DNA from: Fluviicoccus sp.
GTDB taxonomy: Bacteria; Pseudomonadota; Gammaproteobacteria; Pseudomonadales; Moraxellaceae
Assembly (NCBI RefSeq): GCF_030646115.1
Contig: NZ_JAUSMX010000002.1
Span: 248,001-312,000 of the forward strand
Direction of reading: 5' to 3'
DNA: 64,000 nt
Of the stretch, positions 32,829 to 63,588 are shown one piece after another. The position numbers and the translations under genes are program-made. Numbering within the stretch: position 1 is the stretch's first letter; the number at the start of each line of letters is the position of its first letter. A model generated the notes under the pieces. It was given only the letters and a program-made list of their open reading frames with translations. It was not told where the DNA came from and searched no databases.

Positions 32829-32997
32829 TGTTGTTACAGTTGGAATGGGGCGAATTAAGGGTACGAATTGTCGCAGCTTCCCTTTCATGCTAAGTTAAAA
32901 TGCATGTAAATCAGTGGCTTGCCACAAAAACTCCAGAAATAAACACCTTTTCTGGAAAATACAAGCACCAAATTCGGTGTAGATATCAAAGTTGAAC
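32829..32997 (+). other. Integron attI-like leader, copy A
   Basis: This ~165-bp segment aligns along its full length with 58886-59055. Both end in GATATCAAAG followed by TT, and identity stops at the G^TT crossover position of a GTTRRRY core: here GTTGAAC at 32991-32997. The palindrome-like CACCAAATTCGGTG lies inside. It may be an attI site or an unusual attC. No intI gene flanks it; the gap 32799-32828 is otherwise empty. Confidence 0.65.
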
Positions 32998-33111
32998 TAA
33001 ACCGCTTCGCGGTGGCTTTTCTGCCTGTTTCGTCATCGTTTTCCTCCGTATCAGCCACATCGGGTCTTCACTGGAAGATGGGAAATCCCTCCCGTCATCC
33101 GGAGACTCATC

Positions 33112-33993
33112 ATGACGACCGCCCTGCGTTTGCGCATGGACAACGCCATGCTTGTCCGTGGTCTGGCCGACCGCACCCGTCAGTCCTACCTCGAAGCCAT
33201 CACCAAACTCACCCGCTATTACCGCGTCAGCCCTGACTCCCTGTCATCCGCTCAGGTCGAAGCCTGGCTGCTCCACCTTGCCAAAGACCGCAAGCTGTCC
33301 TTCAGCACCGTCAATCAGGCCGCCAGCGCCTGCCGCCTCTTCTATAACACCGTGCTCGGCCTGGATCGTGCCAGCTTCAACATTCCCATGGCCAAGACGC
33401 CGCAGCGCCAGCCCGAGATTCTGGCCCGGACCGAAGTCGCCGCGCTGTTGGCGGCGGCGCGTGGTCTGGCCGACCGAACCTTGCTGATGACCATCTATGC
33501 CGCCGGACTCCGGGTCTCCGAAGCCTGCACCCTCCAGATTGCCGATATTGACAGCGCCCCTGACCGTTTATGCCTTCGTGTCCGGCACGGTAAGGGCGGC
33601 CAGGATCGCTACACGCTGCTGGCGCCCACCCTGCTGGCCGCCCTGCGTGAATACTGGCGACACAACAAACCCCGGCTCTGGTTGTTTCCCAATCCCGGCG
33701 GAAACGCTCCTATCGACATCAAGACCGCACAACGCCGTTATAACCAAGCCCGGACAGCCGCGCACATCCGCAAGACCGGCGGCATCCACACCCTGCGCCA
33801 TTGTTTTGCCACCCACCTGCTGGAGTCCAGTGTCGATCTGGTGACTATCCAGACCTTGATGGGACACAAAGACCTGTCTACCACCGGCCGTTACCTGCAT
33901 CTGGTGTCGATGCAATGGCAGCCACCCCGCAAGCACCTGTCGCCCTTTGACCTGCTCGCGGCCTTGCCCGGCGCACGTCCTTCAACGTCCTGA
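33112..33993 (+). CDS. Tyrosine recombinase of the IS91-like element (293 aa)
   Basis: The N-terminal core-binding domain (~1-95) is followed by a catalytic domain with the R of YAAGLRVSEACTL, K of VRHGKGGQDRY, the HTLRH box (HxxR) and LMGHKDLSTTGRYLH (final His/Trp position and nucleophilic Tyr). It lacks the extra alpha-helical insertion that marks integron integrases between the second and third boxes, so it is not IntI. It accompanies the transposase gene 17 bp downstream. Confidence 0.88.
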   Translation: MTTALRLRMDNAMLVRGLADRTRQSYLEAITKLTRYYRVSPDSLSSAQVEAWLLHLAKDRKLSFSTVNQAASACRLFYNTVLGLDRASFNIPMAKTPQRQPEILARTEVAALLAAARGLADRTLLMTIYAAGLRVSEACTLQIADIDSAPDRLCLRVRHGKGGQDRYTLLAPTLLAALREYWRHNKPRLWLFPNPGGNAPIDIKTAQRRYNQARTAAHIRKTGGIHTLRHCFATHLLESSVDLVTIQTLMGHKDLSTTGRYLHLVSMQWQPPRKHLSPFDLLAALPGARPSTS

Positions 33994-34010
33994 TTCACCT
34001 CGCTACCCTC

Positions 34011-35213
34011 ATGTCCGCTTCGCTCGCCGAGGTCTTCCGGTCCTTTGCCGCCGACTGGCTGGCCGCGCATGGCGTTTCCTCCCAGCAAGCCCGGGTGATG
34101 CGCGCCGTGCTCGACTGCCGCACCGCCGCCCTGGGCGGCCATTGCGAGGCCTGTGACGCCTGCGGACACCTGCGCTTTGTCTACCACTCCTGCCGCAACC
34201 GGCATTGCCCCTCCTGCCAGTCCCGCGCCAAGGAGGCTTGGACACGGCAGCGCATGACAGAACTGCTGCCTGTGCCTTACACGCATCTGGTCTTTACCCT
34301 GCCGCATGCACTGAACGGGCTGGCGGCCTGTCATGACCGCTGGCTCTACACCACGCTGATGACGGTGGTCGCTTCGGTGTTGACCGACTTCGCCCGCAAT
34401 CCGCGCTGGCTGGGGGCGCAACCGCTGTTCTCGCTGGTGCTGCACACCTGGGCGCAGGACCTGCGGCGGCATGTACATGTCCACGGCCTGATGGCCTGCG
34501 GCGGGCTGGATGCGGCCGGGCACTGGTTGACCCCGAAGCGCGACCCGCGCTTCCTGTTCCCGGTGCGGGCCTTGTCTGCCGTGTTCCGGGCGCGGTTCAT
34601 GGCGGCGCTGGATGCGGCCTTGAAGGCGGGCACGCTTCCGAACGATCCGGCGGCGACAGCGGCGGAACGGTCAGCAAGGCGACGGCGATTGCTGCGCCAT
34701 GCCTGGGTGGTTTATGCCAAAACCCCGATGGGCGGCCCGGCCGAAGTGCTGCAATACCTGTCACGCTACACGCATCGCACGGCCATCTCGAACGAGCGTA
34801 TTGTCGCTATCCGGGGCGATACGGTGCTGCTGCGGGTGCGCGACAATCACGCCGGGGGCAAGCGGGTGATCCGGGTACCGGGTGTGGAGTTCACCGGCCG
34901 CTTCCTGCAGCATGTGCTGCCGCCGGGCTTCAAGCGGATACGGCATTACGGGGTGCTGTCGGCAGCCTGCAAAAAGCACGATCTGGAGCGGGCGCGTCTG
35001 GCCTTGAATACCCCCACGCCGTCGCCGGTGGCGATGGAGGAAGCCGCTGACTTCATGAGCCGGGTGGCACTGGTGGATATCCATCGTTGCAAGGCCTGCG
35101 GGGAAGGCACGATGGGGGTCGTGGCGTTTCTGGCCCCGGACCGGTCGGCGGTGTTCAGACCGCACCCAGCGCTGTGTCCGGCCAAGGCAGCACTTTGCCG
35201 GGGGCCGCCATGA
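34011..35213 (+). CDS. IS91-family transposase (400 aa)
   Basis: The N-terminal zinc-binding part is visible: CEACDACGHLRFVYHSC followed by RNRHCPSCQSRAKEAW. Then come YTHLVFTLPHALNGL, QDLRRHVHVHGLMACGG (the HxHxH metal site of the HUH nuclease) and VLQYLSRYTHRTAISNERI (catalytic tyrosine region). Length is typical. These enzymes move DNA by rolling-circle transposition, without target duplication. It appears intact. Confidence 0.92.
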   Translation: MSASLAEVFRSFAADWLAAHGVSSQQARVMRAVLDCRTAALGGHCEACDACGHLRFVYHSCRNRHCPSCQSRAKEAWTRQRMTELLPVPYTHLVFTLPHALNGLAACHDRWLYTTLMTVVASVLTDFARNPRWLGAQPLFSLVLHTWAQDLRRHVHVHGLMACGGLDAAGHWLTPKRDPRFLFPVRALSAVFRARFMAALDAALKAGTLPNDPAATAAERSARRRRLLRHAWVVYAKTPMGGPAEVLQYLSRYTHRTAISNERIVAIRGDTVLLRVRDNHAGGKRVIRVPGVEFTGRFLQHVLPPGFKRIRHYGVLSAACKKHDLERARLALNTPTPSPVAMEEAADFMSRVALVDIHRCKACGEGTMGVVAFLAPDRSAVFRPHPALCPAKAALCRGPP

Positions 35214-35460
35214 TCAGGAGTCGATATCCAGCGACCATCAGGCTTGGAGAGTGCGGTCTTCGGGAGTCGGCTTGGCTGAAAACGGATGGAAGAGCCGAAG
35301 GGGTGGTGATACATCAGGTCGGTTCGTCCCCGAGCGTGCATCGGCGCGGCAACAGCGGGGCTTGGAAGGCAAAACCCCTGCGCCACAGGCATCGTGGCTT
35401 GACAGGACACCGGCGGAAAAGGTACTAATCTCCAGATGGAAGGCCCGGCCCGGCGGTTCA

Positions 35461-35544
35461 GTCCAACATGGTTTATCCACCGCGTTCAGGTGTATCGACT
35501 CCAACCGGCTGCTTGGCGCGATGGATAAACGCTATTCGTTAGGC
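35461..35544 (+). other. attC site, 84 bp, type distinct from the others
   Basis: R'' GTCCAAC (35461-35467) and R' GTTAGGC (35538-35544) frame an imperfect inverted repeat: GTTTATCCACCGCG on the left matches the complement of CGCGATGGATAAAC on the right in 13 of 14 bases. The unpaired bases near R' are typical extrahelical bases. It ends the cassette that contains the IS91-like element and starts the HNH cassette. Confidence 0.75.
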
Positions 35545-35552
35545 TTTTGTTA

Positions 35553-36497
35553 ATGAATGGAATTTTTCGCTATAGAATTAAGCAACCTGTGACTTGGTTT
35601 AATCAGGCTGTATCGAAGTCTAATCAGTATTGCCTTTATTGTGGTCGTTTAGTTGGAGTAGGAGCGACTATTAGCTCAAATAAAGAGCATTTAGTTGGAA
35701 GAGAATTTGTTCCAACAGGTGCATTTGGTGATGGAACATTATTTAACTTTATCTTCAGGGCATGCGAAGACTGTAACAATGAAAAATCAAATATTGAACG
35801 CCATATATCTACAGTATCTTTGTATAACAGCCCTGCTAGACGAGACTCTCAGATATATAATGATATTGCTAACCGAAAAGCAGCAAACGATTATTATCCA
35901 AACAAACAAGGAGTCTTAATTAAGGACTCTGACGATAATCTTACAATAGCTGGTGGTTTTGGCCGTAGTAATATTACATTTGGCCTTTCTAGCCCACCTC
36001 AAGTTGAGCCTACATATTTTGAATTACTTGCGTTTAGACATATACAGGGAATTTTTTCACTTATTACTTCGCATAATCCGCTTACAGCAACAGGCACTAC
36101 ACTGTTAAGTCATGATTTTTTTCACTTTTTTGGCTTATATAATCATGCCGATTGGGGTAATCCCCATTTAATTGAAATAATGAGCAGAGTTTGTAAATTT
36201 CCATGCTATGCCAATATTGAAACAGCAAATGGCTTTTTCAAAGTAATAATAAGAAAAAGGAGTGCCGATGACGGCGAGTGGTTTTGGGCTCTTGAGTGGA
36301 ATAAAAGCTATAGAGTTATTGGTGCTATAGCTAACATAAATGATAATCCAGCAGTATTTAGGAATCTGCCTGCCCTAGTTTGGAAAGAATTAGGTATTCA
36401 AGATGGTGCAACAACAAGAATTCGTGAAGAAACTCCTCTTAATGAAGAGCAAGATATATTGTTTGTCGCTCAAGTCGAAGGTGTGCAAATTGCCTAA
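35553..36497 (+). CDS. HNH-endonuclease-like protein on an integron cassette (314 aa)
   Basis: The start is ATG 35553, 9 bp after R'. The N-terminal zinc/HNH motif is clear: CLYC (C27, C30), EH (E45, H46, in NKEHLVGRE), then CEDCNNEKS (C71, C74, N75). The rest has no recognisable domain. HNH proteins on cassettes often serve as nucleases in DNA processing or phage defence; this is not shown here. The gene is AT-rich against the backbone. Its stop codon TAA lies inside the R'' core of the following attC, a typical tight cassette fit. Confidence 0.75.
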   Translation: MNGIFRYRIKQPVTWFNQAVSKSNQYCLYCGRLVGVGATISSNKEHLVGREFVPTGAFGDGTLFNFIFRACEDCNNEKSNIERHISTVSLYNSPARRDSQIYNDIANRKAANDYYPNKQGVLIKDSDDNLTIAGGFGRSNITFGLSSPPQVEPTYFELLAFRHIQGIFSLITSHNPLTATGTTLLSHDFFHFFGLYNHADWGNPHLIEIMSRVCKFPCYANIETANGFFKVIIRKRSADDGEWFWALEWNKSYRVIGAIANINDNPAVFRNLPALVWKELGIQDGATTRIREETPLNEEQDILFVAQVEGVQIA

Positions 36498-36617
36498 CTT
36501 GCGCGTCAAGTGCGACAAGCACCCAGCCAATTATTGTGCAATTTTTTGAATTCAGTGATTACTGAGTTTTTGTTTATTTTGTTGTAGGGTGCTTGCGCCT
36601 TACGCGGGTAGTTGAAA
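36492..36617 (+). other. attC site 1, 126 bp (homogeneous type)
   Basis: R'' GCCTAAC (36492-36498), the left arm GCGCGTCAAGTGCGACAAGC, a loop with ATTCAGTGATTACTGAGT, the right arm GGGTGCTTGCGCCTTACGCG, and R' GTTGAAA (36611-36617). Arms pair imperfectly with extrahelical bases. Nearly identical sites occur at 59942 and 60711. Confidence 0.85.
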
Positions 36618-36619
36618 TT

Positions 36620-37192
36620 ATGAATGCTGAAGACGATTATCAGAACACCCTAACAAATACCCTTCGAAAAATAGGAAGAAACCTATTGAATTACCAAAGG
36701 GTAGAGATGTTATGGAAATCTCAAATTAACATCTCAGATGTAACCGTCGAGATAATTAATGGAGAAGCAGTAGTTCGTCAAAAAAAATCAAGTACACGCC
36801 CCCAACCCATGGGCTGGCTTGCTGAAAATCACCGAAAATTGCTTTTCTCAAAATTTCCTGAGCAAGACACCAAGGTCAATCCCGAGACGATCTCCATTAC
36901 TACATCATTTAGAATAGAAGATGTCACGCTAAGTTCCGATCGTCGTAAAGATATCCTTATACTTGTCCAAGAGCGAAATATTCTAGTCCATTTGTTAGCT
37001 GAAACGTTTGACCACACATCAAAAAATGATTGTATTAGGTTATGTGCAGAACTAGACCAGCAGAACGCAAGAATAATTCATGAAATTGAGTTTCTTAATA
37101 ACATCTCCAAATCATTCCAAGATGAGATAAAGGAAATTACCAAATATCTTGAGTCCGAATCTTTTATAAACGATATTTCGCAAAATTTCTAA
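36620..37192 (+). CDS. Hypothetical integron cassette protein (190 aa)
   Basis: The ATG at 36620 lies 2 bp after R'. The sequence is helical, with RKIGRNLLNYQRVEML and ERNILVHLLAETFDHT as the most conserved-looking parts; a coiled-coil-like stretch ends the protein (NNISKSFQDEIKEITKYLE). No catalytic motif is recognised. It has no attC after it, so it may be the last, disrupted cassette of the locus or its attC has been lost. It is AT-rich, unlike the backbone. Confidence 0.65.
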   Translation: MNAEDDYQNTLTNTLRKIGRNLLNYQRVEMLWKSQINISDVTVEIINGEAVVRQKKSSTRPQPMGWLAENHRKLLFSKFPEQDTKVNPETISITTSFRIEDVTLSSDRRKDILILVQERNILVHLLAETFDHTSKNDCIRLCAELDQQNARIIHEIEFLNNISKSFQDEIKEITKYLESESFINDISQNF

Positions 37193-57526: not shown

Positions 57527-58705
57527 ATGAGCCCATCCGACGTCAAGCCACCCATCAACTGGCCTGCCATCATTGTGCTGTTTTCCACCCCGCTGGCGGC
57601 GCTGATTGCGATTCCGCTTTATGCCTGGTTTGCCGATTTCAGTACGGCAGCCTGGGTGTTGATGGTGGGTTATCTGTTCGCCAACGGCTTGGGCATCACC
57701 ATGGGCTATCACCGCCTGTGGTCGCACCGGGCGTTTGAAGCGCACTGGCTGGTGAAGATTCCGCTGATGCTGTTGGGCACGGCCGCCATCCAGAACAGCA
57801 TCCTGATGTGGGGTTCGGGCCACCGGGTTCACCACCGTCATGTGGACGATGTGGACAAGGACCCCTACTCCGCCCGTCGCGGTTTCTGGTTCTCGCACAT
57901 GGGCTGGATGATTCGTGACTATCCCACCGGTTATGCCGATTTCAGCAACGCCCAGGATCTGCTGAAAGATCCGATCGTGATGTTCCAGCACAACCATTAC
58001 ATCAAGCTGGTGCTGCTGATGAACTTCGGCGTGCCGATGCTGTTTGGTTGGCTGGTGGGTGATTTCTGGGGTGTGGTGCTGTTGATGGGCCTGCTGCGCC
58101 TGGTGCTGAGCCATCACACCACATTCTTCATCAATTCGCTGGCCCACATGTGGGGCAGCCAGCCCTATACCGATGAGAACACCGCGCGTGACAACTTCGT
58201 GGTTGCGCTGTTTACCTACGGCGAGGGTTATCACAACTTCCACCACATCTTCCAGTATGACTTCCGCAATGGCGTGAAGTGGTGGCAGTACGATCCCACC
58301 AAGTGGCTGATCCTGGCCTGTTCGTGGGTGGGCCTCACCAAGAACCTGAAGCGTGTGCCGGACTTCACCATCCGCAAGGCGCAGTTGCAGATGCAGTTCA
58401 AGCGCGCCCAGCGTCAGTTGGAAGCATCGGCCTCGCGCCTGCCCATGATGGATGTGGAAGCTTTGAAGCAGCGCATGACCCACGAATATGATGCGTTCAT
58501 GGCGACGCTGAATGAGTGGGGTACGCTGAAGGAAGAATGGTACGCCGAGAAGAAGCAGGCGTTGGCGGACAAGAAGCAGGAACTGACGTTGAAGTGGGAA
58601 GAGGCTGATTTCAGCGCCCGTTTCAAGGAGATGGAAAACCGTCTGCAGATGCAGAGCCGTCGTCTGGAACAGATGATGCGTCAGGCTTTTCCGACTCCGG
58701 TTTGA
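57527..58705 (+). CDS. Fatty acyl-CoA desaturase with coiled-coil C-terminus (392 aa)
   Basis: Three histidine boxes of integral-membrane desaturases: HRLWSH, HRVHH (SGHRVHHRH) and HNFHH (GYHNFHHIF). Four hydrophobic segments frame them. It introduces a double bond into acyl chains, probably at Delta9. The last ~105 residues are highly charged and helical (RKAQLQMQFKRAQRQLEASAS; WYAEKKQALADKKQELTLKW) and predicted to be coiled coil, an extension seen in some bacterial members. A terminator follows. Confidence 0.92.
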   Translation: MSPSDVKPPINWPAIIVLFSTPLAALIAIPLYAWFADFSTAAWVLMVGYLFANGLGITMGYHRLWSHRAFEAHWLVKIPLMLLGTAAIQNSILMWGSGHRVHHRHVDDVDKDPYSARRGFWFSHMGWMIRDYPTGYADFSNAQDLLKDPIVMFQHNHYIKLVLLMNFGVPMLFGWLVGDFWGVVLLMGLLRLVLSHHTTFFINSLAHMWGSQPYTDENTARDNFVVALFTYGEGYHNFHHIFQYDFRNGVKWWQYDPTKWLILACSWVGLTKNLKRVPDFTIRKAQLQMQFKRAQRQLEASASRLPMMDVEALKQRMTHEYDAFMATLNEWGTLKEEWYAEKKQALADKKQELTLKWEEADFSARFKEMENRLQMQSRRLEQMMRQAFPTPV

Positions 58706-58752: not shown

Positions 58753-58885
58753 ATGGCGAAGTTGCTGTTGATGGTTGTGTGGCAGGGTTCTTCACATTTC
58801 GGTGGGCCTGTTCAGACTACCGCCGATGCTCCCTGGTGCCTTCGGGCCTCACCCCTGCTTGCAGGATTCCATTAAAGCCGTTATA

Positions 58886-59055
58886 CGTTGTAACAACTTG
58901 GACGGGGCCGAATTTAAGGTTTACATTGTCGGAAATGTCCTTTTCTGCTAGTTTTAAGTGCTTGAAAATCAGTAGCTTGCTACTGTACAGCCAGAATACA
59001 ACGCCGTTTTTGGAAAATACAAGCACCAAATTTGGTGTCGATATCAAAGTTAGGC
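58886..59055 (+). other. Integron attI-like leader, copy B
   Basis: Matches copy A (32829-32997) over its full length. It ends in GATATCAAAG followed by TT and the core GTTAGGC at 59049-59055, exactly where the first cassette starts. A perfect palindrome CACCAAATTTGGTG lies ~20 bp before the core. Together with 58753-58885, which shows nothing else, it fills the gap between the desaturase and cassette 1. Confidence 0.65.
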
Positions 59056-59062
59056 TTTTAAT

Positions 59063-59581
59063 ATGAGTAAATTGCAGAAAATAGTTGATAAATATACTCA
59101 AGACCTTCAACCAATGGAAAAAATATATTCAGAAGAGTTTCCTAATTCAGATAAAATTGCTAAAGAAGTTGGGCGGGATGGAATAGTAGAAGTATTTGAC
59201 AATATAGCTAGAATATCTGCAGAAAGAGAACGTTTAGATAGTGAGGGTGAAGTTAATTGTGACGAACTTGATGATTATTGGCGAGCCGCTACTAGGTATG
59301 CGAGTATTATTCCATACCAAATAAGGTTATATCCTGAAGACGTACTTAATGGACTATTTAGTGATAGTGAGGCTGTGAGATTTTATGTGGCTTATAGTTT
59401 AGGGAAAGTGCCATTTCGTAGTGCACATCCTTATCTCAACAACGCATTAAAGCAAGAATCATCTGAACTTAATATTCGTGTTTTGAATGAAGCTATAAAA
59501 GTATGTTCTTCTTTAGAAAAGTGTTCCAATGAATATTTAGAAAAACTAATGAATAAAAAGGTTTCATGGCACGATGCCTAA
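59063..59581 (+). CDS. Hypothetical integron cassette protein, helical repeat-like (172 aa)
   Basis: The first cassette of locus 2: ATG 59063 lies 7 bp after the core. It is AT-rich and acidic; EDVLNGLFSDSEAVRFYVAYSLGKVPF and NNALKQESSELNIRVLNEAIK look like HEAT-type helices (inference). No active-site motif is recognised. The stop TAA lies in the R'' core (GCCTAAC at 59576-59582) of a damaged attC. Confidence 0.65.
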   Translation: MSKLQKIVDKYTQDLQPMEKIYSEEFPNSDKIAKEVGRDGIVEVFDNIARISAERERLDSEGEVNCDELDDYWRAATRYASIIPYQIRLYPEDVLNGLFSDSEAVRFYVAYSLGKVPFRSAHPYLNNALKQESSELNIRVLNEAIKVCSSLEKCSNEYLEKLMNKKVSWHDA

Positions 59582-59614
59582 CTTTCGCGTCAAGTGCGAC
59601 AAGCACCCAGCCGA
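59576..59614 (+). other. Degenerate attC site, left half only
   Basis: R'' GCCTAAC and the left arm GCGTCAAGTGCGACAAGCAC match the other attC sites up to CCCAGCCGATTAT, but no right arm or R' follows; the next gene starts 34 bp later. The two genes therefore form one unit that could move together. Confidence 0.7.
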
Positions 59615-59647
59615 TTATTTCTTATTTTTGATCGACGTTTTATTATT

Positions 59648-59923
59648 ATGAAGTACCAAAATATATTGGACAAAAGCTATCGTCATTTAAAGGAAGGTTT
59701 TACATACAGAGTTGCCAAAGAGTTCAGAGATTACGACCATAATCTACAATCCTTGGGAATAACTTTGGTTTTTATAGGTAGTAACTTTGTTCCATACGAA
59801 GATGGCCTTTCGCTTTTTGTTTCAATAAATGGCATAGAACAGCAAATAAGATTGCAATGTCGTCCAGAAGAGCAAAAAGAGATTATTGAAAATCTTGAGC
59901 AATATTTGGTACAGTGTCAGTAA
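59648..59923 (+). CDS. Hypothetical integron cassette protein (91 aa)
   Basis: Starts MKYQNILDKSYRHLKEGFTY at ATG 59648; an earlier in-frame start (59594) lies in the attC remnant. It looks like a single small alpha/beta fold: YDHNLQSLGITLVFIGSNFVP and DGLSLFVSINGIEQQIRLQC. The family is not recognised. It is AT-rich. It is followed by an intact attC at 59942. Confidence 0.6.
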   Translation: MKYQNILDKSYRHLKEGFTYRVAKEFRDYDHNLQSLGITLVFIGSNFVPYEDGLSLFVSINGIEQQIRLQCRPEEQKEIIENLEQYLVQCQ

Positions 59924-59941
59924 TAAACAGTGCCGCACCGT

Positions 59942-60065
59942 GCCTAACTTGCGCGTCAAGTGCGACAAGCACCCAGCCAATTATTGTGTATTTTTTGATG
60001 GTTCTGAGGTACTCTCAGTTTTTAATTTTGTTGTAGGTGCTTGCGCCTTACGCGAGTAGTTGGTA
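59942..60065 (+). other. attC site 3 (124 bp)
   Basis: R'' GCCTAAC at 59942, arms near-identical to attC site 1, R' GTTGGTA at 60059-60065. The right arm has CGCGAGTAGT in place of CGCGGGTAGT. Confidence 0.85.
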
Positions 60066-60077
60066 TAGGAGTAATAA

Positions 60078-60698
60078 ATGAAAAAATGGAATTTGTCTCA
60101 AAAAAGCTATCTTCGCTTCATAAGATTTATTGGTTTTTCACAAAGAACGACTCGAAGCCTTTTTAGACTTTTCCAAATAGCAGTGTATTGTATAGCCGTC
60201 GTCTTTTTTATAAATATAATTAGCATATTTTTATTAGATTTCGATAATAAGGTAAGTACGGGATCATTTGGTGATCTATTTGGAGGTGTTCTCAACCCTT
60301 TATTAACATTTCTAATGTTCATGGGGGTTCTAATCACCATAGTATTGCAGCAAAAAGAACTAAAATTAACGCGTAAAGAATTAAAAAAATCCTCTATGGC
60401 TTTGGCTGAGCAAGCAGTTTCTCAAGAAAAATTCATACATAATCAGATGCTAACAGCAAAAATACATGCACTATCTACAATCATAGAGTCTATAAATGTA
60501 GATATAAAAATTAGCTTTCAAAAGTTTTCAATTTTTTACTCATCTGTAGGAACTAGCGCAGGTATTAAAATTGAGGCTCAATTAGATCAATCAATGGATG
60601 AAATCTCAAAACATATAAATGAAAGAATTACATACCGTACCACTATAGAGAATATGATGATGCTTCTTATCCATCAACAAAATACGAAAGGTAATTGA
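60078..60698 (+). CDS. Integron cassette membrane protein with coiled coil (206 aa)
   Basis: Starts ATG 60078. Two membrane spans (FQIAVYCIAVVFFINIISIFLL and LNPLLTFLMFMGVLITIVLQ) are followed by a charged coiled coil (QQKELKLTRKELKKSSMALAE). The motif FGDLFGGVLNPLLTF recalls a group of membrane proteins found in phages and defence islands, from memory. Function unknown. It is AT-rich, with lysines and isoleucines abundant. Confidence 0.65.
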   Translation: MKKWNLSQKSYLRFIRFIGFSQRTTRSLFRLFQIAVYCIAVVFFINIISIFLLDFDNKVSTGSFGDLFGGVLNPLLTFLMFMGVLITIVLQQKELKLTRKELKKSSMALAEQAVSQEKFIHNQMLTAKIHALSTIIESINVDIKISFQKFSIFYSSVGTSAGIKIEAQLDQSMDEISKHINERITYRTTIENMMMLLIHQQNTKGN

Positions 60699-60710
60699 TG
60701 AGCGTGCAAT

Positions 60711-60835
60711 ACCTAACTTGCGCGTCAAGTGCGACAAGCACCCAGCCAATTATGGGGGCTATTTTTAAATTCAGTTATTACTGAGTTTTTGTTTAATTTG
60801 TTGTGGGTGCTTGCGCCTTACGCGGGTAGTCATGC
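60711..60835 (+). other. attC site 4 (125 bp)
   Basis: R'' ACCTAAC at 60711-60717 (fits RYYYAAC), arms near-identical to sites 1 and 3, R' region GTCATGC at 60829-60835, where only GT of the core is kept. Confidence 0.8.
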
Positions 60836-60878
60836 CTCATATGGGTAGCTAGAGTTTTAGCATGGAAATAGTGGTTTT

Positions 60879-61880
60879 ATGAGTATAGAAAAAGAGAAAA
60901 TGGAGCAGAATATTCTTTCTTGTATATTTGAAGATGGGAGGCAATGTAAAATAACTAAAACTGAACAACCAGATTTTATCTTGAACTATAAAGGGGCTAT
61001 GATTGGTGAGGTTGCCGTCGGAATAGAAATTACAGAATTATACTATGATGCAACGTCTGCTAGACTCAACAATAAAAAAGGTTATATTCGTGACTTATTG
61101 GAAGGACAAAATATCCACAAGGACGATAAAAGTGTATTAACGGTAAAAGAAGTAAAGTATTTCTCGCAAAGTTTAGGCGGAAAACCATTTAATACGAAGA
61201 TGCTGTTTCTCCCTAATTATACAATTGATGACTATCGCAACGCATTTCTTAGAACCCTGAGAAAAAAGCATGCAAAGCATGCCAATTATAATAAATCAGT
61301 TAATCAGTCTAGCTTGGTTATTTATGACCGCGAGAATTATTCTGGTAAATTAAAGCGACAAGATTTTGTTAGGGCTTTTTTCAATGAGTCAGTAATGGAG
61401 GAAATTAAAATTTCTCCTTTCGATGAAATTTACCTGATAACCTGTTTTGAAGGAAGTAATGATGAGTTTTATATTCAACTTAAGTATTGTGTGTTGCAGA
61501 ATGAACTTTATAGACTGCTCGAATATATAGAAAAAAATTCGTTGCACGATAAATCAAAAGGAATGGGATTAAGTCTTAATGACGTCTTTGCTGAGGTGTT
61601 AGTTAAAAATGGCTACGTAGGAATAAAGAAATCAGAATGTAACCAAATTGATGCTGTGAGGTGTAATAGATATGCATTTAACATTAGTGAGATTGATAAA
61701 AAAATTAGTGTTTTTGATGACTTTCCTAAGCTTACTAATGCAGGTGTAGACTTTTCATTAAGTGAAAATAAAAAACTATTTACTACGAAATCTTTCCGTA
61801 AGTTTTTAAAAGAATCCAAGCATAGATATGTATCTTTTGATGTCGGTTTTAAGGTGCTCCGAAATTGGAGAGAGGGGTAA
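60879..61880 (+). CDS. Hypothetical cassette protein, possible PD-(D/E)xK-like nuclease (333 aa)
   Basis: Starts ATG 60879. TEQPDFILNYKG (P31, D32) and VAVGIEITELY (E50) have the spacing of a PD-(D/E)xK nuclease core, but the Lys is replaced by Thr, so the assignment is weak. The remainder (YIQLKYCVLQNELYRLLEYIE) is mixed alpha/beta. It is the last gene of locus 2 and lacks a following attC; 61881-62130 holds no gene. Confidence 0.55.
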   Translation: MSIEKEKMEQNILSCIFEDGRQCKITKTEQPDFILNYKGAMIGEVAVGIEITELYYDATSARLNNKKGYIRDLLEGQNIHKDDKSVLTVKEVKYFSQSLGGKPFNTKMLFLPNYTIDDYRNAFLRTLRKKHAKHANYNKSVNQSSLVIYDRENYSGKLKRQDFVRAFFNESVMEEIKISPFDEIYLITCFEGSNDEFYIQLKYCVLQNELYRLLEYIEKNSLHDKSKGMGLSLNDVFAEVLVKNGYVGIKKSECNQIDAVRCNRYAFNISEIDKKISVFDDFPKLTNAGVDFSLSENKKLFTTKSFRKFLKESKHRYVSFDVGFKVLRNWREG

Positions 61881-62130: not shown

Positions 62131-63588
62131 ATGCCCTCGCTTTCCCAACTCCGCTTCGACAACACCTTCGCCCGCCAGTTCCCGCAACTGCATACCCGGC
62201 TGGCCCCCACCCCACTGCGCGAACCCTTCCTCGTTCATGCCAACGCCGCCGTGGCCAAACTGCTGGACATCGACCTGGACGCACACTCCCCCGAAGAACT
62301 GGCCCGCTACTTTGGCGGCCACACCCCGCTGCCCGGCAGCGAACCCCTGGCCATGACCTATAGCGGCCACCAGTTCGGGCAATACAACCCGCAACTGGGC
62401 GACGGTCGCGGCCTGCTGCTGGGCGAAGTGGTGAACGAACGCGGTGAACGCTGGGACTTGCACCTGAAAGGAGCCGGACGCACCCCCTACTCCCGCTTCG
62501 GCGACGGCCGGGCCGTGTTACGCTCCAGCATCCGCGAATACCTGTGCAGCGAGGCCATGCACGGCCTTGGCATCCCCAGCACCCGCGCCTTGTGCGTGGT
62601 GGGGTCAAAGGAGTCGGTGCAACGTGAAAGCCGCGAGGCCGGGGCCACATTGCTGCGCGTAGCCGACAGCCACATCCGTTTCGGGCATTTTGAATGGCTG
62701 TTCAACAACCGCCCGGAACTGCTGCGCCCCTTGGCAGACTATGTCATTGACCGTCATTACCCGGAATGCCGGGACGCCGCGAAACCGGTAGCCGCCCTGC
62801 TGCACGCCGTCGTAACGCGCACCGCCAAACTCATGGCAGACTGGCAAAAATCGGGCTTTGCCCACGGCGTCATGAATACCGACAATTTCTCCATCACCGG
62901 CAGCACCTTCGATTACGGTCCCTTCGGTTTTCTGGATGCCTATGACCCCGGTTATGTCTGCAATCATTCCGACCACACCGGCCGTTATGCCTGGAACCAG
63001 CAACCCAGCATTGGCCTGTGGAACCTGAACGCCCTGGCCTATGCCCTGTCGCCATTGGTGGATCAGGACGACATCATCGCCGCCCTGCACTCCTATGAAC
63101 CGACCTTGCTGGAACACTATTATTCCGGCATGCGCGGCAAGCTGGGGCTGGCAAGCATCCAGGACGACGATACCGCACTGATCATGGGCCTGCTGGATCT
63201 GATGATGAAAAACGGCGGCGACTACACCCGTACATTTCGCGCACTGAGTCACGTGCAACTGGGGGATGAACGCTGCCCGCTGCGGGATGATTTCGTGGAT
63301 CGGGAAGGGTTTGATGCCTGGTTTGAGAGTTACCGGCAACGCCTGCTGCTGGAAGGTCGACCGGACCCGGAACGTCAGGCTGACATGCTGCGGCGGAACC
63401 CCAAATACATCCTGCGCAACTATCTGGCGCAGATTGCGATCAACAAGGCGGATAACGGGGATTACAGCGAGGTGGAGCGGCTGCTGCAGTTGCTGCAGTC
63501 ACCGTATGAGGAATGGCCGGAGCATGAAGCTTATGCGGGACTGCCGCCGGATTGGGGACGGAAGATGGTGATCAGTTGTTCGTCGTAG
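62131..63588 (+). CDS. selO: SelO-type protein AMPylase (485 aa)
   Basis: Pseudokinase-fold enzyme that transfers AMP to protein hydroxyls. MTYSGHQFGQYNPQLGDGRG is diagnostic, with DLHLKGAGRTPYSRFGDGRA and FAHGVMNTDNFSITG (the inverted active-site Asn/Asp). It ends in CSS, with Cys where eukaryotic SelO has selenocysteine. Length is normal. Redox-regulated in E. coli. Confidence 0.95.
   Translation: MPSLSQLRFDNTFARQFPQLHTRLAPTPLREPFLVHANAAVAKLLDIDLDAHSPEELARYFGGHTPLPGSEPLAMTYSGHQFGQYNPQLGDGRGLLLGEVVNERGERWDLHLKGAGRTPYSRFGDGRAVLRSSIREYLCSEAMHGLGIPSTRALCVVGSKESVQRESREAGATLLRVADSHIRFGHFEWLFNNRPELLRPLADYVIDRHYPECRDAAKPVAALLHAVVTRTAKLMADWQKSGFAHGVMNTDNFSITGSTFDYGPFGFLDAYDPGYVCNHSDHTGRYAWNQQPSIGLWNLNALAYALSPLVDQDDIIAALHSYEPTLLEHYYSGMRGKLGLASIQDDDTALIMGLLDLMMKNGGDYTRTFRALSHVQLGDERCPLRDDFVDREGFDAWFESYRQRLLLEGRPDPERQADMLRRNPKYILRNYLAQIAINKADNGDYSEVERLLQLLQSPYEEWPEHEAYAGLPPDWGRKMVISCSS

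Follow-up and report, generated by a model that had tools for sequence, protein, structure and literature searches.

Two leaders in the window, the whole 64,000-nucleotide stretch of DNA analysed here, are probably orphan attI platforms that were filled by an integron integrase (IntI) acting in trans. They lie on the forward strand at 32829..32997 (c1) and 58886..59055 (c2). The earlier note had proposed that different cassettes were inserted at an attI-like site, which is supported by several independent tests, although recombination by IntI remains an inference. It had also counted two platforms in the stretch; both are real, but they are not the only ones, as about 15 candidate copies of the leader occur in the genome of the window (G000), a draft of 39 contigs.

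The similarity of c1 and c2 was borne out by a local alignment that starts at 32830 and 58887, respectively, with 131 of 160 positions identical. Its score of 85 was reached by none of 300 dinucleotide shuffles (maximum 18), and blastn aligned the two with 75% identity over 164 bp. The copies were said to diverge directly past GTT, and this is exactly where the alignment stops. In c1 the crossover GTT at 32991-32993 is followed by GAAC (32994-32997) and in c2 the GTT at 59049-59051 is followed by AGGC (59052-59055); the sequences past GTT are GAACTAAACC in c1 and AGGCTTTTAA in c2. Identity beyond GTT, which would have refuted the proposal, did not occur. GTTRRRY, expected of an attI where the leader meets the array, is thus present as GTTGAAC in c1 and as GTTAGGC in c2. 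Both leaders contain a palindrome, CACCGAATTTGGTG at 32966-32979 (+) in c1 and its counterpart at 59024-59037 (+) in c2. On the upstream side, c1 starts 15-30 bp downstream of the stop of a TetR-type gene (32798), and a weaker likeness to the copy on contig C3, judged by eye, starts at about 32813. The c2 leader starts about 170-180 bp downstream of the stop of a desaturase gene (58705), and its likeness to the copy at C23:20520 starts at 58877. Approximately 120 bp (window 58757-58876) separate the desaturase terminator from c2.

That a cassette had been inserted at c1 proved correct with regard to the GTT boundary but not to the first insert, which is an IS91-type element with the ordinary cassette behind it. 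The element (32992..35538, +) carries a tyrosine recombinase gene (33112..33993, +; Phage_integrase, Phage_int_SAM_4) and an IS91-type transposase gene (34011..35213, +; Y2_Tnp, Zn_Tnp_IS91). The latter meets the criterion of the IS91 family, a Y2 transposase combined with a zinc-binding domain (PF04986, PF14319). The element is built like a gene cassette, with a GTTGAAC start, and a hairpin and GTT at its end; an R''-like GTCCAAC lies at 35461-35467, and the right boundary falls between GATAAACGCTATTC and GTTAGGC. The gene cassette behind the element (35538..36617, +) starts with this GTTAGGC, contains an ORF (35547-36497) to which no Pfam family was assigned at E 0.001, and ends in a folded attC (36492-36617, +). 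It is followed by a second cassette-like ORF (36612..37192, +), which begins at about 36620 and behind which no attC was found.

The left end of the element, GTT followed by GAACTAAACCGC, was read in three places besides c1. In the genome G151 the element neighbours an intact intI and is about 260 bp away from its start, at the position expected of attI. In the Escherichia coli plasmid pM216_AC2 it separates two cassettes of a class 1 integron, with the attC of aac(6')-IIa on one side (TTCAGGTGTT, then GAAC) and the aadA4 cassette on the other (GATC, then GTTAGGC). In a Polaromonas plasmid it is flanked by GTT on both sides, outside an annotated integron. In each of the four places read (c1, G151, the class 1 integron and the Polaromonas plasmid) the element is therefore bounded by a GTT on either side, and because related elements are always found between two GTTs at integron sites, the GTT of the leader behaves like an integron crossover. 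In a gene cassette, the start is expected to be complementary to the R'' that precedes the right-end hairpin. The GTTGAAC start of the element is nearly complementary to the GTCCAAC or GCTCAAC before the right-end hairpin, and folding of three right ends yielded bottom-strand z values of -2.5, -3.9 and -4.2. With GTT at both ends, a near-complementary R'' and a folded right end, the c1 element meets the criterion of a cassette by structure; its excision and integration by IntI would be an inference from sequence only. No other single observation speaks as strongly for the leader being an integron site as this: relatives of the element occupy an attI position and an attC elsewhere, and the c1 element itself stands behind the GTT of the leader.

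Further observations concern this kind of element. In NZ_AP018145.1, an E. coli plasmid (L148:1368-3945), an element composed of a tyrosine recombinase and an IS91-type transposase lies exactly between two class 1 integron cassettes; in the plasmid collection, no record other than NZ_AP018145.1 itself covers at least 80% of L148:1368-3945. On the minus strand of G000:C1, sequences at 200822 and 202538 (L035, L036) are 84% and 77% like the right end of the element and are situated away from any element genes found by that search.

At c2, GTT is followed by AGGC and a low-GC cassette array (59050..61880, +), the ORFs of which (59063-59581, about 59649-59923, 60078-60698 and 60879-61880, all +) are associated with the attC family that also occurs in the c1 cassette. 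Two full attC sites (59942-60067 and 60711-60837) and an attC remnant from 59576 (24 bits, E 0.04) were identified; behind the last ORF (60879-61880) no attC was found. The GC content drops to 0.35 at 60-62 kb, from about 0.6 to the left and right of 58-62 kb. The array, with its two full attC sites and the remnant, fulfils the definition of a CALIN (at least two attC, no integrase nearby); the c1 locus has one attC. Cassettes bearing attC downstream, another attribute of attI, are present at both c1 and c2. The array is flanked on the left by the fatty-acid desaturase gene (57527..58705, +) and on the right by a SelO gene (62131..63588, +). Among 58 relatives with a SelO match, 29 SelO loci were fetched, and in 14 of them the desaturase adjoins SelO, including G012 and G026 of the sister genus g13; in G019, G040 and G004, the three genomes of g5 whose SelO is most similar, it does not. 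The desaturase-SelO gap of G012 amounts to about 60 bp and contains a terminator-like hairpin. Given the adjacency of the two genes in relatives, the c2 leader and its cassettes, taken together, most likely represent an insertion between neighbours.

No intI is located beside c1 or c2, as the earlier note had observed, and the whole-genome search for intI that it had suggested retrieved only a remnant with the middle deleted. The remnant (G000:C15:65431) matches model positions 1-106 with E 2.2e-28, and the C15 frame consists of an IntI start fused to an IntI-like tail, the middle being absent. The intI model, applied to the whole draft, also matches the recombinase of the c1 element and two full-length recombinases, which are taken for XerC and XerD; the model has matches in all 14 control genomes. 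At E 0.001 the whole-genome search revealed no intI near the 15 leaders except the recombinase of the c1 element. No leader meets the attI criterion of an adjoining intI, and the combination of intact intI, attI and promoter that defines a complete integron is not met. As the draft consists of 39 contigs, an intI could still be hidden in one of its gaps; the C7 array ends less than 200 bases from the contig end. Downstream of the intI remnant an attC (L018 / L011, near G000:C15:67750-67900) is split by an IS110-type-looking element, which would be in keeping with the IS1111-attC habit.

For a comparison with attI sites linked to intI, intI was identified at E <= 1e-60 in 21 of 348 genomes of the family; 22 family intI loci were fetched and 21 scored, since L058 lacked upstream sequence. 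A 26-position matrix of the leader core fell on the crossover beside intI in seven of the 21 loci (L042, L043, L045, L094, L095, L096 and L088, the last of class 1 type), for which 4, 5, 0, 8, 32, 28 and 126 of 200 shuffles, respectively, scored as high. Four of the seven stand out, their shuffle counts being at most 8 of 200. In the other 14 family loci and in all ten loci of other families of the order the matrix was off the crossover; in L093 and L098 the best site, off the crossover, was reached by 9 of 200 shuffles. Outside the core, no convincing likeness to any of the intI-linked attI examined was found (best nhmmer E 0.07). The likeness to other attI sites is thus limited to the core and, above shuffles, to four of the family loci scored.

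The attI core of g13, GGTGTCYACTTAACGTTAG, was then sought with up to two mismatches in 12 genomes (seven g13, four g5 and G000). It occurred nine times in six genomes, all of g13; the reversed control had no occurrence in the 12 genomes. Three of the cores adjoin intI (in G063, G012 and G046), and six are orphans (G012:C4, G012:C11, G026:C6, G067:C118, G037:C78 and G037:C38), in the fetched flanks of which tblastn with IntI found nothing at E 1. Attl-like copies without a nearby intI are therefore present in a sister genus, and G012 possesses an intact intI as well as attI-like copies remote from it. Between -145 and the crossover the G012:C4 orphan can be aligned with the copy linked to intI, at a score of 61 against a shuffle maximum of 14; past GTTAG the two diverge, with 6 of the next 40 positions identical. 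Provided that intI begins at the codon shared with G063 (MDGH / MEGN), and not at another that lies earlier in the same frame, -145 coincides with the intI start. The orphans of G037 can be aligned with each other over about 157 bp (score 68). When compared with the intI-linked copies, G067, G026 and G037:C78 score clearly above shuffles for one copy or more (26-28), G037:C38 slightly above them (17 vs 14), and G012:C11 above them for none. Two 58-bp attC follow the G037:C78 orphan. Four of five refetched orphan loci lie less than 3 kb from a contig end on the cassette side; the side on which intI would lie is present. Behind the orphan core G012:C11:58372 (L159), an ORF from about +19 to +1104 encodes 361 amino acids and looks SIR2-like by eye.

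The G012 orphan spans approximately the intI-attI interval, which would fit either a unit that was copied or the remainder of a clean loss of intI. If such losses were general, complete integrons would have existed at each place, and the intI-attI interval would have been retained as the promoter of the first cassette. We regard this as unlikely, while acknowledging that it accounts for some of the data: the likeness of the orphan to the intI-linked copy starts at about the intI start codon, as expected after loss of the coding region, and an internally deleted intI exists in G000. Arguing against it are the lack of intI matches near the 15 leaders, apart from the c1 element's recombinase, the six orphan flanks of the sister genus devoid of IntI matches, and the mere 15-30 bp between the TetR gene and c1. 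A copied unit is favoured, since no intI debris was found. Tentatively, promoter and attI may form a dispersed module that was copied without intI in this bacterial family, provided many docking sites for one integrase in trans, and outlived that integrase in the genome studied here; such an integron would have multiple sites instead of a single array.

The dispersal of the leader is seen in the number of its copies. Four were detected by blastn of the whole genome, and a profile of these four revealed five more within a 20-kb segment of C23, with E-values (1.9e-11 to 1.9e-4) computed over the fetched loci and not over the whole genome. A model of the nine copies, run against the whole genome, added C23:2837 (E 5.5e-7), C3:114837 (E 2.6e-5), C18:1862 (E 1.2e-4) and C23:4180 (E 5.3e-4) and, weakly, C26:212875 (E 0.0015) and C23:1517 (E 0.006); the E-values of the nine follow by construction, as they were in the model. 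Fifteen of the 20 matches at E <= 10 were counted, and the five weakest (E 0.02 to 0.18), by eye ordinary sequence, were dropped. Nine of the 15 candidates are clustered in C23:1.5-26.8 kb, and the genes read beside the copies differ from copy to copy. The leader is a non-coding unit of about 165-185 bp. Among the 11 leaders with a standard core, which form the core matrix (C23:26670 was left out because it is gapped; C23:11880, C18 and C26 have no core by the rule used), pairwise identity averages 0.73 in the 21 bp that end with GTT and 0.33 in the 10 bp beyond. GTT is retained in seven of the 15 copies and an exact GTTRRRY in only three (c1, c2 and C15); we read the copies lacking them as decayed crossovers.

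A full-length leader model matched no genome of the family except G000 among 344 searched. The filters of that search recovered only seven of the 15 copies in G000 itself, so that weak relatives elsewhere may have been missed. Matches by blastn in G082, G132 and G142 were not counted; they extend over 27-42 bp and lack the crossover. Scanning the genome contig collection with the core pattern resulted in six matches (Actinomarina, Ligilactobacillus, one unplaced bacterium and three Bacilli), which are treated as chance because the leader profile fits them over the core alone. The same pattern had no match in viral contigs, nor did blastn of the leader in plasmids.

Eight of the 15 copies contain a promoter-like box, TTGTCG-N17-TAnnnT, which in c1 reads TTGTCG-N17-TAAGTT (32868-32896, +) and in c2 TTGTCG-N17-TAGTTT (58926-58954, +); the G/TT crossover is located about 100 bp downstream. 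In shuffles the box was present in a mean of 0.03 of 15 copies and in at most 2, and when the spacing was varied from 12 to 23, the only value other than 17 to be found was 22, in two cases. The pattern was chosen only after the alignment had been inspected, and a generic promoter scan called no forward promoter in c1 or c2; promoter activity is for these reasons inferred.

Seven attC of the genome share 24 paired positions and three unpaired bases on one arm, with pairing in 93.9% of the cells as compared to at most 47.5% in the slid control; owing to the similarity of the copies, covariation is weak. A model of these attC scored above 100 bits at eight places (three in the window, two on C7 and one each on C14, C33 and C15) and found nothing at E 10 near the platforms on C23, C15, C3 and C18. 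By a scan for attC pairs, an attC-like site was located behind the C18 copy (L082:2373-2459) and another behind the C23:20520 copy (L013:11693-11748, minus strand), which by eye closely resembles the two 58-bp attC of the G037 orphan. The scan also reported seven non-cassette sites in the window, and hence only matches of the expected place and orientation count. The ORFs behind the platforms provide additional evidence: 6 of 14 platform ORFs end at RYYYAAC, compared with 4 of 133 control genes from the same genome (p = 4e-5), and for YYAAC the figures are 10 of 14 and 18 of 133 (p = 8e-6). Three cassette-ORF ends with RYYYAAC (C15, C23:2837 and C14) had been removed from the controls, which changed 7/136 to 4/133 and, for YYAAC, 21 to 18. 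The 14 ORFs exclude the C3 copy, for which the rule used yields none, and c1 is represented by the cassette behind the IS91-type element.

Shortly past three platform ORF ends (L081 at about 950 and 3650, L074 at about 1960) a repeat like GTAGGGGCGCATTGCATGCGCCC was noticed, possibly a right-hand boundary element. At L013:3993-4667 a 224-aa ORF is preceded by GTTAGGC and ends with ACTTAAC just before the leader C23:11880, as if the attI-type leader replaced an attC in the manner of Delta-attI; the pair C23:18263/18716 looks alike.

The approximately 15 copies, the strict promoter-like box, the lack of a full-length match to known attI and the scarcity of exact GTTRRRY could also be accommodated if the leader were a repeat or promoter element scattered between genes and unconnected with integrons, with cassettes behind it by chance. 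This is improbable in view of the break at GTT, the R'' motifs at the ORF ends, the relatives of the int+IS91 element at integron sites and the similar cores beside intI in sister genera.

Several other identities of the leader were examined. No Rfam family reached the gathering score in 109001 bases (window, L012, L013 and L081). The leader does not resemble the region upstream of the genome's own intI remnant and is not a copy of it. A coding function was rejected in the absence of a frame common to the copies: no frame is open across the 165 bp of c1, and c2 has a 115-aa frame without a Pfam match. Membership in a known gene, which according to the earlier note would have spoken against an attI, can thus be discounted.

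The same applies to an attC of a lost cassette, the other identity that would have refuted the proposal. An attC is an imperfect palindrome that folds as a single strand, and the leader does not meet this criterion: the bottom strands of seven leaders fold like shuffled DNA (z -2.1 to +0.2), whereas five of six canonical attC of the genome do not (z -3.7 to -8.2), the exception being the C33 attC (-1.2). The latter and the attC-like site behind the C18 copy (z -0.7, no better than shuffled DNA) fold no better than leaders. It is true that some copies start near YAAC and that two in the C23 cluster follow the R'' motif of an ORF, as might be expected if the leader were a long attC, whole or in part, left by a lost cassette upstream. 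However, c2 is preceded not by a cassette but by the desaturase gene, a neighbour of SelO in the relatives mentioned, and we consider such an origin very improbable. Least credible are secondary sites of the attG type, where cassettes would have entered unrelated G/TT and the shared 165 bp would be a coincidence of duplicated surroundings; IntI can use such genomic sites, according to the available portions of the sources (PMC12901181, PMC12444791), but many homologous leaders ending at the crossover would not be expected, and the flanking genes read differ.

We therefore return to the leader as an orphan attI platform, which would comprise a promoter-like box and an attI-type G/TT crossover. 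Acting in trans, an integrase of an integron would have joined circular cassettes to the GTT by recombination of attI with attC, and the cassette-like int+IS91 element would have been joined to the GTT of c1 in the same way. Expression of the first cassette would be driven by the promoter of the leader. The platforms would have reached their places without intI, and the arrays and most of the crossovers would have decayed later. Sequences, copy number, boundaries, attC cassettes at some platforms, related elements at integron sites elsewhere and the attI-like orphans of a sister genus are directly observable; recombination by IntI, the activity of the promoter and the spread of the platforms are inferred from them.

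The leader has in common with intI-linked chromosomal attI the G/TT crossover, the cassettes downstream, the promoter-like box and the absence of an attC-type fold, and its core resembles some of those in sister genera. It differs by the lack of intI, the approximately 15 candidate copies per genome and the dissimilar sequence outside the core. Clusters of attC without integrase (CALIN) and single attC without integrase (SALIN) have been described (PMC12444791, PMC9229058). As at c1 and c2, their attC cassettes are remote from intI, but the accessible parts of these descriptions mention no leader, whereas the c1 and c2 arrays start with a conserved leader of the attI type. Fragments of attI in cassettes have also been published, as Delta-attI-type gene cassettes (PMC12901181). 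From what is available of that source, they too contain attI-derived sequence away from intI, and their core, AAACAAAGTTRRRY, shares CAAAGTTRRRY with the leaders c1, c2 and C15; the Delta-attI pieces replace attC behind an ORF in class 1 and class 2 integrons, whereas c1 and c2 stand behind chromosomal genes. An IS91-like element adjoining attC, ISShvi3, has been reported in Shewanella (PMC9229058, consulted in part). The c1 element, by comparison, possesses a tyrosine recombinase, in which it may or may not differ from ISShvi3, and lies behind an orphan attI-like leader.

In the literature searched, which was open-licence and left most subscription journals outside, no description of dispersed attI-type leaders without integrase was found. 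The usual picture of an integron is that of one integrase, one attI and one array. If the interpretation proposed here is true, many integrase-less attI platforms per genome would account for the starting points of scattered cassette clusters and for the expression of lone cassettes, and scans based on intI or attC would overlook insertion sites. A genome such as G012 would then allow a trans-acting integron with multiple sites to be tested directly.
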